DNA of 64,000 nt from Halomarina salina (GTDB lineage: Archaea; Halobacteriota; Halobacteria; Halobacteriales; Haloarculaceae). A program made the translations under genes and the position numbers. The notes under the pieces are model-generated. The model saw only the letters and a program-made list of their open reading frames with translations, searched no databases and was not told the origin of the DNA. Location of the stretch: the NCBI RefSeq assembly GCF_023074835.1, contig NZ_JALLGW010000001.1:1612001-1676000 (forward strand). Reading direction: 5' to 3'. This document shows, piece after piece, positions 39,013 to 43,075 of the stretch; within the stretch, counting starts at the first letter, position 1; every line of letters starts with the position of its first letter.

Positions 39013-40014
39013 TCACTTCATGCCGCGACTGGCGAGGTGGTACTCCATGACCGTCTCCATCCCGCCGATGTACGCGCTCACGTCGACGCTCTCGATGTCG
39101 TACTCGCGTTCGCAGACGCGTTTGTGGCGGTCGCACCACTCGTCGAGGAACGCCTCCTCGACGCCACACTCCTTGATGCGCTCGACGATGGACTCGAGGT
39201 CACCGGCCGGGTCGAGTTCGTCCGCGTCGACGACGTCGTCCTGGATGGCCTGGACGATGACGCCCGCCGAGTAGTCGCCCTCGGTGAGTTCGCGTTCCCA
39301 GGTCGTGACCCAGTTGCCGATGCGGGCCATCTTCTGGAGGTCCCAGGTCAGGTCGCGCAGCGACGAGAGGTCGTCCATCGCGAACCGGGAGGAGAACATG
39401 AGGTCGATGTCCGTGTAGGGGAACAGGACCATGTTGTGCGCGTCGTACGTCCGTGCGCCAGTCGCGTTCGCGATGTGCGCGTTGTCGCTGACGAGGCGCG
39501 TGTACTCCATCGCGTTGAACCCCTGCCGCAGGTCGTACATGAAGATGTCCTTGAACTCGCCGTAACGCGGTGCCGTTCGGAGCCCGTCGTCGATGTCCGT
39601 CCAGATGTCCTGGATGAACTCCAGTATCTCGCCGTTCACGCCCTCGCGCGTGGGGTCGACGGTCTCCGGGTCACGGACGACGCGGCGTGCCTCCTCGAAG
39701 GTCGCCTTGTCGTCGTGGGACTCGACGAGGTCGTCGAGCGTCGTGATGAACACTGTAAATAGCGTCTTAATCTCCTTCACGCGGTCGACATCGCGGGCGT
39801 CGACCGACGAGAGCGTGAACGCGTCGAACAGACTGTGAATCCACTTCCAGAGGAAGGTGTCTCGGTCCGCGACGACGCGGTCGTACTCCTCTACGACCTC
39901 GATGACCGTCTGAGGCAGCTCGACGGCAGAAACCTCTCCGATGAGGTCTGTCTGCTCCCGTCCGACGGGAAGGGAGGGCTGTTGCGGTGTGAGATCGACC
40001 AGTTCGTGTGCCAT
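39013..40014 (-). CDS. Class I terpene synthase-like protein
   Basis: 333 aa, all-helical by pattern and close to the length of microbial class I terpene synthases. D94-DLVE-98 after a hydrophobic helix (LFTVFITTL) is an Asp-rich DDxxE metal motif. N234, T238 and E242 in RIGNWVTTWERELTEGDYS fit the NSE triad (N-x3-S/T-x3-E). Arg188 lies exactly 46 residues before N234, the place of the diphosphate-sensor Arg in bacterial enzymes. A C-terminal RY pair is not seen. It would cyclise or ionise a prenyl diphosphate; substrate unknown. Divergent from the PAS/GAF/HTH-10 regulator. ATG at 40014. Confidence 0.7.
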   Translation of the reverse strand: MAHELVDLTPQQPSLPVGREQTDLIGEVSAVELPQTVIEVVEEYDRVVADRDTFLWKWIHSLFDAFTLSSVDARDVDRVKEIKTLFTVFITTLDDLVESHDDKATFEEARRVVRDPETVDPTREGVNGEILEFIQDIWTDIDDGLRTAPRYGEFKDIFMYDLRQGFNAMEYTRLVSDNAHIANATGARTYDAHNMVLFPYTDIDLMFSSRFAMDDLSSLRDLTWDLQKMARIGNWVTTWERELTEGDYSAGVIVQAIQDDVVDADELDPAGDLESIVERIKECGVEEAFLDEWCDRHKRVCEREYDIESVDVSAYIGGMETVMEYHLASRGMK

Positions 40015-40195
40015 AACCAACTCCACCTGAGCAATCACCTCACGTAAAGCTTTGCATTATTGAGTTCCAAAATCAGAACATTCTCGATTTGGTGAACTAA
40101 ACAATCCTGATATCGTGAATTATATGTCTGAAAGAACCCGGATTGTCCAGTCAGAGCCGAACGATTTATACAGCAGTAGATGTGCTGATTAAGCG
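40015..40195. promoter_or_regulatory. AT-rich divergent promoter region, terpene synthase-like / HTH-10 regulator
   Basis: The 181 nt between the divergent genes are far more AT-rich than their surroundings. For the rightward gene, TTTATA at 40165-40170 is 26 nt before the ATG. For the leftward gene, a reverse-strand AAAGCTTTAC (about 40044-40053) is 30-40 nt before its ATG. Several short T/A runs between (GAATTATATG, GAACTAAACAATC) could bind regulators. A shared control region is likely. Confidence 0.55.
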
Positions 40196-43075
40196 ATGAT
40201 TACGGGTCGGGTGCAAAACGACACGACGAACGCTCCCCTCCGCGTGCTCCACGTGGCAGGGGTTAACGACAGTACGACCGAGGTTAACGGCCTCACAGTC
40301 TCCACGGCGAGCCCTCCGGAGGCGCTCGACCGCATCTCCGCGGGTACGCGTGTAGACTGCGTACTGGTCGAGTACGAACTACCTAACACGACCGGGCCGG
40401 AGGTCGTGGACCGCATTCGCGCGGTGAACAAGGACATCCCCATCGTCGCTCGCGTCTCGGACGAGGTCGGGACCGGTGACGTCCTCGCGGCCGGGGCGAC
40501 CGACGTCGTCTCCGAGGACGCAGCGGGCAGGGAGCTCCACCGACGCATCGAGAACGCGGTCGGGTCGCCGGACGCGGCCGACTGGGCGACGCGCCGCGAG
40601 GCGCTGGCGGACCTCCGCCAGTCCGCCCTCGAAGGGCAGAACCTCCCGCGGCTGTTCGAGGAGGCGACCGCCATCATCCAGGCGTCGCTCGGCATCGACC
40701 GCTGTGGACTGTTCGAGTACCAGGCCGACGAGGACGACCTCTCGCTGGTCGCCGAGACGGGCTGGCGCGGTCCCGAGACGATCTCGGACGACCAGTCGCT
40801 CGCGCGCGCGGCGCTCGACGCGACCGGCGCCGTGTGTGCCGACGCCTCCGTCGGCGACGTCGCCGGCGGCATCGCACTCGGACTCGACCTCCCGGGTGGC
40901 CCGTGGGGCGTGCTCGCCGCGTACACGACTCACCCGCGCGAGTTCGGCGACGCCGAACGCCAGCTGCTCGTCCGCGTCGCGGACATCCTCGAACCCGTCA
41001 TCGAGCGCGAACGACGGCAGGAGGAACTGGAGCGCTACGAGACCATCCTCGAGACCGTCGACGACGCCGTCTACTCGCTGGACCCGAACTTCCGCATGGA
41101 GTGGGTCAACGACGCGACGACCGAGATGACCGGCTACCAGCGCGAGGACCTCATCGGCCAGCACTCCCAGATGCTCGCCGACGACGACGTGTTCGAGATG
41201 GTCGAGGAGCTCTCCGCGCAGATGCTCGAATCCGGCGAGGACGTCGCGAGCGTCGACACGAACCTCGCGACCAGCGAGGGCGACTCGGTCCCCATCGAGA
41301 CGCGCTTCTCGATGCTCTCGCGACGGGACGGCAGCCAGGGGTTCGTGGGCGTGGCCCGCGACATCACCGACCGGAAGCGCTACGAGCAGACGCTGACCGC
41401 GCTCCACAACTCGACGCGCGAACTGCTGACCGCCGAACGCCGGGACGACGTGAGCGACCTCATCGCCCGGACGGCCTCCGACGTGCTCGACCTGCAGGGC
41501 GTCGGCGTCTACCTGTTCGACGGTGACGAGGGCCGACTCAGACCCTCCGCGTGGTCCCCCGAGATGACCGAACTCGTCGGCGACCTGCCGACGGTCGGAC
41601 CGGCCGAGCCGGCGCTCGTCTGGCGGACGTTCGTCGCCGGGGAGCTGCTCTCGTACGACGACATCCGCGAGGCGGAGTCGGTGTACGACGAGGACACGCC
41701 GTTCCGCTCGGGACTCTACGTCCCCCTGGGCGAGCACGGCGTGCTGTTCGCTGAGTCGACCGAGACCGCCGCGTTCGACACGCAGATGACCGAACTGGTC
41801 GACCTGCTCGCCGCGAGCGCGGAGGCCGCGCTCGACCGGGTCGAGCGCGAGGACGAACTCCGGAAACGCGACGAGGAACTGCGCGAGCAGAACGCCGCCC
41901 TGACCGGCCTGAAGCAGACGAACGACATCATCCGGTCGGTCGACGCGGCGCTCGTCGGCGCGAACACGCGCGAGGAGGTCGAGACCGCCGTCTGCGAGGA
42001 ACTCGTGACGGCCGACGAGTTCTCGTTCGCCTGGACCGCGGCCGTCGAGGACGGGAGCCTCGTCTCGCGCGCGACCGCGGGCGACGAGCGTGGCTACCTC
42101 GACACCGTCGACCTCAGCCTCGGCGAAGAGTTCGCCGAACCCGCCGCACGCGCCGCCGCGACCCGCGAGCAGGTCGTGGTTGGCGAGGTGGCGACCGGCT
42201 TCCAGGACGAACCGTGGCGGCGTACCGCGCTCTCGAACGACTACCTCTCCGTGCTCGCCGTCCCGCTCCTCCACGGCGACGTGCTGTACGGGGTGCTCGC
42301 GGTGTACGCGAACCAGCAGGACGCGTTCGACCAGATGCGCCGCGAGGTGCTCGCCGAGTTCGGCGGCACCATCGCCAACGCCATCAACAACGTCGAGACG
42401 CGGCGGACGATGCTCGCCGACCGGGTCGCCGAACTGGAACTGCAGGTCGACGAGGACCTGACGCTCCGCTCGCTCGCCGAGACCGCCGACTGCCGACTGG
42501 AGATAGACGACATCATCCACGAGTCCGGCGACAGCACGCTGGTGTTCTGTAGCGCTCACGGCGCAAACCCGGACGACCTGCTCGCCCTCGAAGACGAGTT
42601 CGTCGGCGTCGAACACGTCGGCATCATCGCCGAGGACGACGACGCCGTCCGCTGCGAGATGCGCCTGACGACGGACATCATCGCCACCCACCTCGCCGAC
42701 TGCGGGGCGGTGACCCGCTCCATCCACGTCGACGAGTCCGGTGCTCGCGTCGTCGTCGAACTGCCGCAGGACGCCGACGTGCGAGAGTTCGTCGAGGCCG
42801 TCCAGCGTCGCTACCCCGGCACGGACCTGCTCGCCCGGCGCAACCGGTCGTCGTCGGCTCAGACCCGCCGCGACGTGCGTGCAGGCATCTCCGAGCGACT
42901 GACCGACCGCCAGCACGAGGTGCTGCGGACCGCGTTCGCGAGCGGCTTCTTCGAGTGGCCCCGCGACCGGACCGGACAGGAGGTGGCGACGTCGCTGGAC
43001 ATCTCCCAGCCGACGTTCAACAAGCACCTCCGGGCGGCCGAGCGCAAACTGTTCTCCATGCTCCTGGAGGGCTGA
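40196..43075 (+). CDS. Multi-sensor PAS/GAF regulator with bacterio-opsin activator HTH-10
   Basis: 959 aa. Residues about 15-110 look like a receiver domain, but the phospho-acceptor place holds Glu59 (CVLVEYELP), not Asp. A GAF domain lies at about 150-275, a PAS domain at 280-400 (VDDAVYSLDPNFRMEWVNDAT), and two more GAF domains at about 405-550 and 575-735. The Bat-type region then ends in an HTH-10 domain (LTDRQHEVLRTAFASGFFEWPR ... SQPTFNKHLRAAERKL). No membrane segment. Relatives of Bat control phototrophy and carotenoid genes. It is divergent from a terpene-synthase-like gene and may control it. Leaderless by TATA spacing. Confidence 0.88.
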   Translation: MITGRVQNDTTNAPLRVLHVAGVNDSTTEVNGLTVSTASPPEALDRISAGTRVDCVLVEYELPNTTGPEVVDRIRAVNKDIPIVARVSDEVGTGDVLAAGATDVVSEDAAGRELHRRIENAVGSPDAADWATRREALADLRQSALEGQNLPRLFEEATAIIQASLGIDRCGLFEYQADEDDLSLVAETGWRGPETISDDQSLARAALDATGAVCADASVGDVAGGIALGLDLPGGPWGVLAAYTTHPREFGDAERQLLVRVADILEPVIERERRQEELERYETILETVDDAVYSLDPNFRMEWVNDATTEMTGYQREDLIGQHSQMLADDDVFEMVEELSAQMLESGEDVASVDTNLATSEGDSVPIETRFSMLSRRDGSQGFVGVARDITDRKRYEQTLTALHNSTRELLTAERRDDVSDLIARTASDVLDLQGVGVYLFDGDEGRLRPSAWSPEMTELVGDLPTVGPAEPALVWRTFVAGELLSYDDIREAESVYDEDTPFRSGLYVPLGEHGVLFAESTETAAFDTQMTELVDLLAASAEAALDRVEREDELRKRDEELREQNAALTGLKQTNDIIRSVDAALVGANTREEVETAVCEELVTADEFSFAWTAAVEDGSLVSRATAGDERGYLDTVDLSLGEEFAEPAARAAATREQVVVGEVATGFQDEPWRRTALSNDYLSVLAVPLLHGDVLYGVLAVYANQQDAFDQMRREVLAEFGGTIANAINNVETRRTMLADRVAELELQVDEDLTLRSLAETADCRLEIDDIIHESGDSTLVFCSAHGANPDDLLALEDEFVGVEHVGIIAEDDDAVRCEMRLTTDIIATHLADCGAVTRSIHVDESGARVVVELPQDADVREFVEAVQRRYPGTDLLARRNRSSSAQTRRDVRAGISERLTDRQHEVLRTAFASGFFEWPRDRTGQEVATSLDISQPTFNKHLRAAERKLFSMLLEG

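Follow-up and report, generated by a model that had tools for sequence, protein, structure and literature searches.

The window analysed here, a stretch of 64,000 nucleotides from Halomarina salina, holds on its minus strand an open reading frame for 333 amino acids (40014..39013) whose product is, in all likelihood, a divergent class I terpene synthase, which would use FPP or GGPP, three Mg2+ ions and a set of invariant basic residues to release a terpene, probably under the control of a Bat-type regulator. On the basis of sequence comparison and structural models, the class I terpene synthase family to which this protein belongs appears to be both new and divergent. A sequence-only reading had already placed a terpene synthase-like gene at 39013-40014, leaving its strand unstated; the frame exists on the minus strand, and the interval is interrupted by a stop when read on the plus strand. 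The ATG at 40014 is favoured over the alternative GTG at 40038 because it is kept across the Halomarina relatives in an alignment of the upstream regions. The features of the gene are as follows.

39013..40014, minus strand: predicted coding sequence of the 333-aa protein, divergent and class I terpene synthase-like, beginning with ATG at 40014 and ending with TGA at 39013-39015 (assigned from translation, start conservation, family and fold)
39721..39735, minus strand: D94-D95-L-V-E98, putative metal-binding motif 1, closing helix 73-98 at its C-terminal end in the predicted model
39289..39315, minus strand: N234-W-V-T-T238-W-E-R241-E242, putative metal-binding motif 2, closing helix 213-244 at its C-terminal end in the predicted model
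39451..39453, minus strand: R188, which aligns with the canonical sensor column and lacks conservation in the family; proposed as diphosphate sensor
39016..39018, minus strand: K333, C-terminal lysine, invariant in 50/50 aligned members

Canonical bacterial class I enzymes hold a sensor Arg 46 residues before the Asn of the NSE motif, together with a C-terminal RY pair. The DDxxE motif (D94-E98), the N234/T238/E242 triad and R188, located 46 residues before N234, are found in the translation exactly where they had been reported, R241 of motif 2 stands where canonical NSE motifs have a Lys or Arg (KE/RE), and the protein ends in S-R-G-M-K. In class I terpene synthases, the DDxxD/E and NSE/DTE motifs bind a trinuclear Mg2+ cluster, and the diphosphate is typically contacted by three basic residues (PMC10563020). 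When the 333-aa protein was shuffled, however, DDxx[DE] and [ND]xxx[ST]xxxE occurred with suitable spacing in 3.2% of the shuffles, and in 0.26% with an additional Arg at -46. The motifs by themselves are thus suggestive only: inspection of one sequence is insufficient, and it is the conservation across the family that decides.

This conservation was assessed in an alignment of 50 members, comprising 43 haloarchaeal and seven bacterial rows, which fall on two sides of the family tree (a quick tree with long branches). D95, N234, T238 and E242 are invariant in all 50, D94 is present in 48, and position 98 is always E or D. R220, R231 and R241 are also invariant, and R51 and K83 nearly so. The case of R188 is different. 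Its position is meaningful, as it aligns with the canonical sensor column in a profile-profile alignment, yet the family, judged by its sequences, is independent of an Arg there, since this residue is found in only nine of the 43 haloarchaeal members and in none of the seven bacterial ones. R188 was therefore dropped as independent evidence, and the proposal that three independent features support the assignment does not survive for this residue. The C-terminal RY pair is likewise absent as a conserved feature, with a variable position 330 followed by G331 (42/43 and 7/7 members), and the ND of the canonical NSE motif is replaced by NW or NL in the haloarchaeal/planctomycete family.

The predicted structure points in the same direction as the metal motifs. 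AlphaFold, provided with the family alignment, returned an all-alpha model of the 333-aa protein (pLDDT 92.4, pTM 0.90) in which both motifs terminate long helices, and all 25 matches of this model in the PDB at E<=1e-3 (Foldseek) are class I terpene synthases, with TM-scores of 0.46-0.59 normalised on the query. When a planctomycete member was modelled from an alignment of its own (pLDDT 93.9), terpene synthases were again the only matches at this threshold. Among sequence profiles, PF19086 (Terpene_syn_C_2; curated cut-off 23.7 bits) matches 11 of 17 relatives, with a best E of 3.9e-8, and 21 of 145 haloarchaeal genomes hold matches above the cut-off, which lie at family loci wherever coordinates were compared; the search with this profile, which had been proposed, succeeded for relatives and not for the 333-aa protein itself. 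A profile-profile comparison of the family with two canonical synthases was weak and improved with 14 canonical bacterial synthases, reaching E 2e-4 with both motifs in register and a probability of only 47%. This probability is one of several points weighing against the synthase reading, the others being that the 333-aa protein alone has no Pfam or NCBIfam match at E<=1 and no match among PDB sequences, that the sensor Arg and the RY pair are unconserved, that NW or NL stands in place of the ND of the NSE motif, that the window copy has no adjoining isoprenoid gene, and that solved terpene synthases give only moderate TM-scores (0.43-0.59 among the matches listed). The sole match of the family profile to PDB sequences is a designed protein, a chance hit. 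Taken together, the motifs, the predicted fold, the PF19086 matches of the relatives and the profile-profile alignment support the membership of the family in the class I terpene synthase superfamily, where it lies outside the canonical bacterial subgroup.

The genetic neighborhood of the gene in Halomarina salina includes a regulator, absent from the sequence-only reading, which is transcribed divergently across an intergenic region of 181 bp.

40196..43075, plus strand: Bat-type sensor-regulator, divergent from the synthase gene, 959 aa with receiver-like, PAS, GAF, BAT and HTH_10 domains (Pfam)
40041..40060, minus strand: candidate promoter element, the block ATAATGCAAAGCTTTACGTG containing AAAGCTTT, upstream of the ATG and partly conserved in Halomarina relatives (alignment)

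Of 53 haloarchaeal loci, 30 have a Bat-type gene within 1.5 kb of the synthase and a further 11 have a PAS histidine kinase, so that 41/53 loci hold a Bat/HTH_10 or PAS-kinase neighbour; this pattern spans several genera and both orientations, the loci being phylogenetically non-independent. At several of them, a small HalOD1 gene intervenes. Because the genome of Halomarina salina encodes 44 BAT-domain proteins above cut-off in 4.46 Mb (11 of them >100 bits), chance adjacency can be estimated at ~1-2% per locus. On the bacterial side, one membrane histidine-kinase family follows the synthase in eight planctomycete loci. Regulators are the sole partners that recur in both the haloarchaeal and the bacterial half of the tree, and the family is probably regulated by environmental signals. 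A biosynthetic cluster around the haloarchaeal copies was considered and rejected, as the remaining neighbours vary between genera: the neighbour here is glucose-6-phosphate isomerase-like, those elsewhere are homocitrate/isopropylmalate-synthase-like or mutase-like (from a look at the sequences only), and Pfam identifies others as EF-Tu-like proteins or Cys/Met metabolism enzymes. The window copy has no isoprenoid gene next to it, and the three polyprenyl synthetases of the genome are all encoded away from this locus, in agreement with the earlier remark that no prenyltransferase is adjacent.

The bacterial relatives exhibit links to isoprenoid metabolism that the sequence-only reading also lacked. 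Two planctomycete proteins of 915 aa (L084 and L087) consist of a DXP synthase (DXS) and the terpene synthase-like domain, and a third planctomycete (L105) holds another full DXS fusion. In these three genomes the fused DXS scores 708-732 bits, exceeding the equivalog cut-off, and two of the three hold a separate DXS as well; the TPP-site motifs can be read in L084 and partly in L087 and L105. Four other relatives (L104, L144, L146 and L147) carry, N-terminal to the synthase domain, a sequence related to a DXS half that does not amount to a full DXS. These halves are apparently decaying, and the synthase domains are intact. A series leading from full DXS fusion to remnant is possible. Flavoproteins adjoining L084, L085 and L105 match the geranylgeranyl reductase family below its cut-off, and IspH is encoded close to L085 and L093. 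Among the deep relatives, one is fused to a SAM methyltransferase (L153:1084-2979, CMAS/UbiE-like) and another adjoins one (L154).

These two sets of neighbours bear on an alternative to which we assign a low probability, namely that the fold and the metal site have been kept in a protein that makes no product of its own and serves the adjacent sensory proteins instead, either as a sensor that binds prenyl diphosphates or as their regulatory partner. The linkage to Bat, PAS-kinase and HalOD1 genes conserved in haloarchaea, the presence of one histidine-kinase family at the eight planctomycete loci and the loss of both the canonical sensor Arg and the RY pair would all fit such a role. However, all metal-binding residues have been retained across the deep split of the family, as catalysis would predict, the full DXS fusions in genomes with a second DXS point to metabolic flux, and the geranylgeranyl-reductase-family and methyltransferase partners suggest that a product is made and modified.

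Still less probable is that the protein belongs to another class of isoprenoid enzyme with the same fold, either a trans-prenyltransferase or a head-to-head synthase of the squalene/phytoene type. These enzymes share the all-alpha superfamily, and GGPP and FPP synthases do appear lower in the fold lists of both models, but none of them at E<=1e-3, where no prenyltransferase is found among the matches; moreover, the second metal motif is N-T-E rather than a second DDxxD or DxxxD. In the profile searches, no family member matches the trans-prenyltransferases (PF00348, two DDxxD) or the squalene/phytoene synthases, and terpene synthase models are the only ones matched among isoprenoid families.

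Members of the family were found in 87 of the 292 haloarchaeal genomes sampled and, among bacteria, in Planctomycetota and one unplaced bacterial bin, being rare in the surrounding bacterial genomes sampled (2/298 in one class draw and 9/392 in one phylum draw). In RefSeq the relatives, including those on plasmid records, are labelled "hypothetical protein". The genome of the deep relatives L153 and L154 (G698) holds four family matches, and in a planctomycete-side relative (L145:673-2103) the terpene synthase-like domain is preceded by a PilZ domain at the N-terminus (35.6 bits). Outside the window, the genome of Halomarina salina contains a second, frameshifted copy (G000:C1:1465603-1466531; L002, L003), 40-48% identical, in which DDFAD and NWVTTWERE are still readable and no Arg stands at the position of R188. 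Three other haloarchaeal copies (L048, L073 and L089) are broken by early stops or frameshifts, so that the trait may be dispensable. That the window copy is itself a decaying, horizontally acquired gene without a present role, as this patchy spread, the lack of a copy in one genome of the same genus and the broken relatives might indicate, is highly improbable given that it is intact, holds all motifs and is closely similar to the copies of H. oriensis (89% identity) and H. rubra (86%), both with the same divergent Bat neighbour.

The synthase reading, which we consider by far the best account of these data, can be outlined as a mechanism. The enzyme would bind a linear prenyl diphosphate (FPP or GGPP) supplied by the polyprenyl synthetases encoded elsewhere in the genome, a supply that is plausible because there are three of them. 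Three Mg2+ ions would be held by D94, D95 and E98 together with N234, T238 and E242, and R231, R241 and perhaps K333 would grip the diphosphate, replacing the canonical sensor Arg and RY pair. The substrate would then be ionised in a Mg2+-dependent manner, and a terpene hydrocarbon or alcohol released, with expression probably controlled by the divergent Bat-type sensor-regulator. A broader and rather speculative proposal is that the whole family forms a terpenoid signalling or stress-response module of haloarchaea and planctomycetes, in which a dedicated sensor encoded next to the synthase (a Bat-type regulator, a PAS kinase or a membrane histidine kinase) controls the making, or the sensing, of the product and, in planctomycetes, the flux was provided by a fused dedicated DXS, later reduced to a remnant.

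The isoprenoids for which haloarchaea are known are carotenoids, quinones and ether lipids; an active enzyme would provide them with a new class of isoprenoid products, as well as being a source of salt-adapted terpene synthases. Where a genome keeps a second DXS, fusing this first enzyme of the MEP pathway to a terminal terpene synthase would commit flux in an unusual way, and the repeated association with sensory regulators in both domains of life opens the role of the product to direct testing. In the literature searched, whose coverage was partial so that prior work is possible, no characterised archaeal class I terpene synthase was found; published counts of "terpene clusters" exist for Halomicroarcula and for archaea generally, and name no such enzyme in the text consulted. 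The expectation that the product would be new to the group calls for caution: what is new is the family with its context rather than the occurrence of a terpene synthase in haloarchaea, because a canonical PF19086 synthase already occurs on a Halocatena plasmid.

Compared with known systems, the closest parallel is found in the bacterial class I synthases of PF19086, such as hydropyrene synthase, VenA, pentalenene synthase and the N-terminal domain of geosmin synthase. These share with the family the alpha fold (Foldseek), the motifs in register and a length of ~330 aa, and relatives of the 333-aa protein pass the PF19086 cut-off. However, identity is only ~13%, NW or NL stands here in place of ND, the sensor Arg and the RY pair are unconserved, and the family adds the invariant R220, R231 and C-terminal K333 and has regulators as conserved neighbours. 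Fungal class I sesquiterpene synthases, exemplified by aristolochene synthase, are among the best fold matches of both models, although they are ~12-16% identical, eukaryotic and without such linkage. The terpene synthase of Halocatena marina (NZ_CP109980.1) is likewise haloarchaeal and holds a PF19086 domain, but it is of the canonical bacterial type, with a polyprenyl synthetase next door and an N-terminal Polyketide_cyc2 domain, and forms a separate family; its plasmid gene (L138:4344-5783), annotated as "SRPBCC family protein", scores 157 bits with PF19086 behind Polyketide_cyc2 and lies near a HalOD1 gene. Finally, the divergent neighbour shares the PAS/GAF-BAT-HTH_10 architecture of the Bat (bacterio-opsin activator)-type regulators and differs in being one of 44 BAT-domain proteins above cut-off in its own genome, with the adjacent synthase gene as its probable target.
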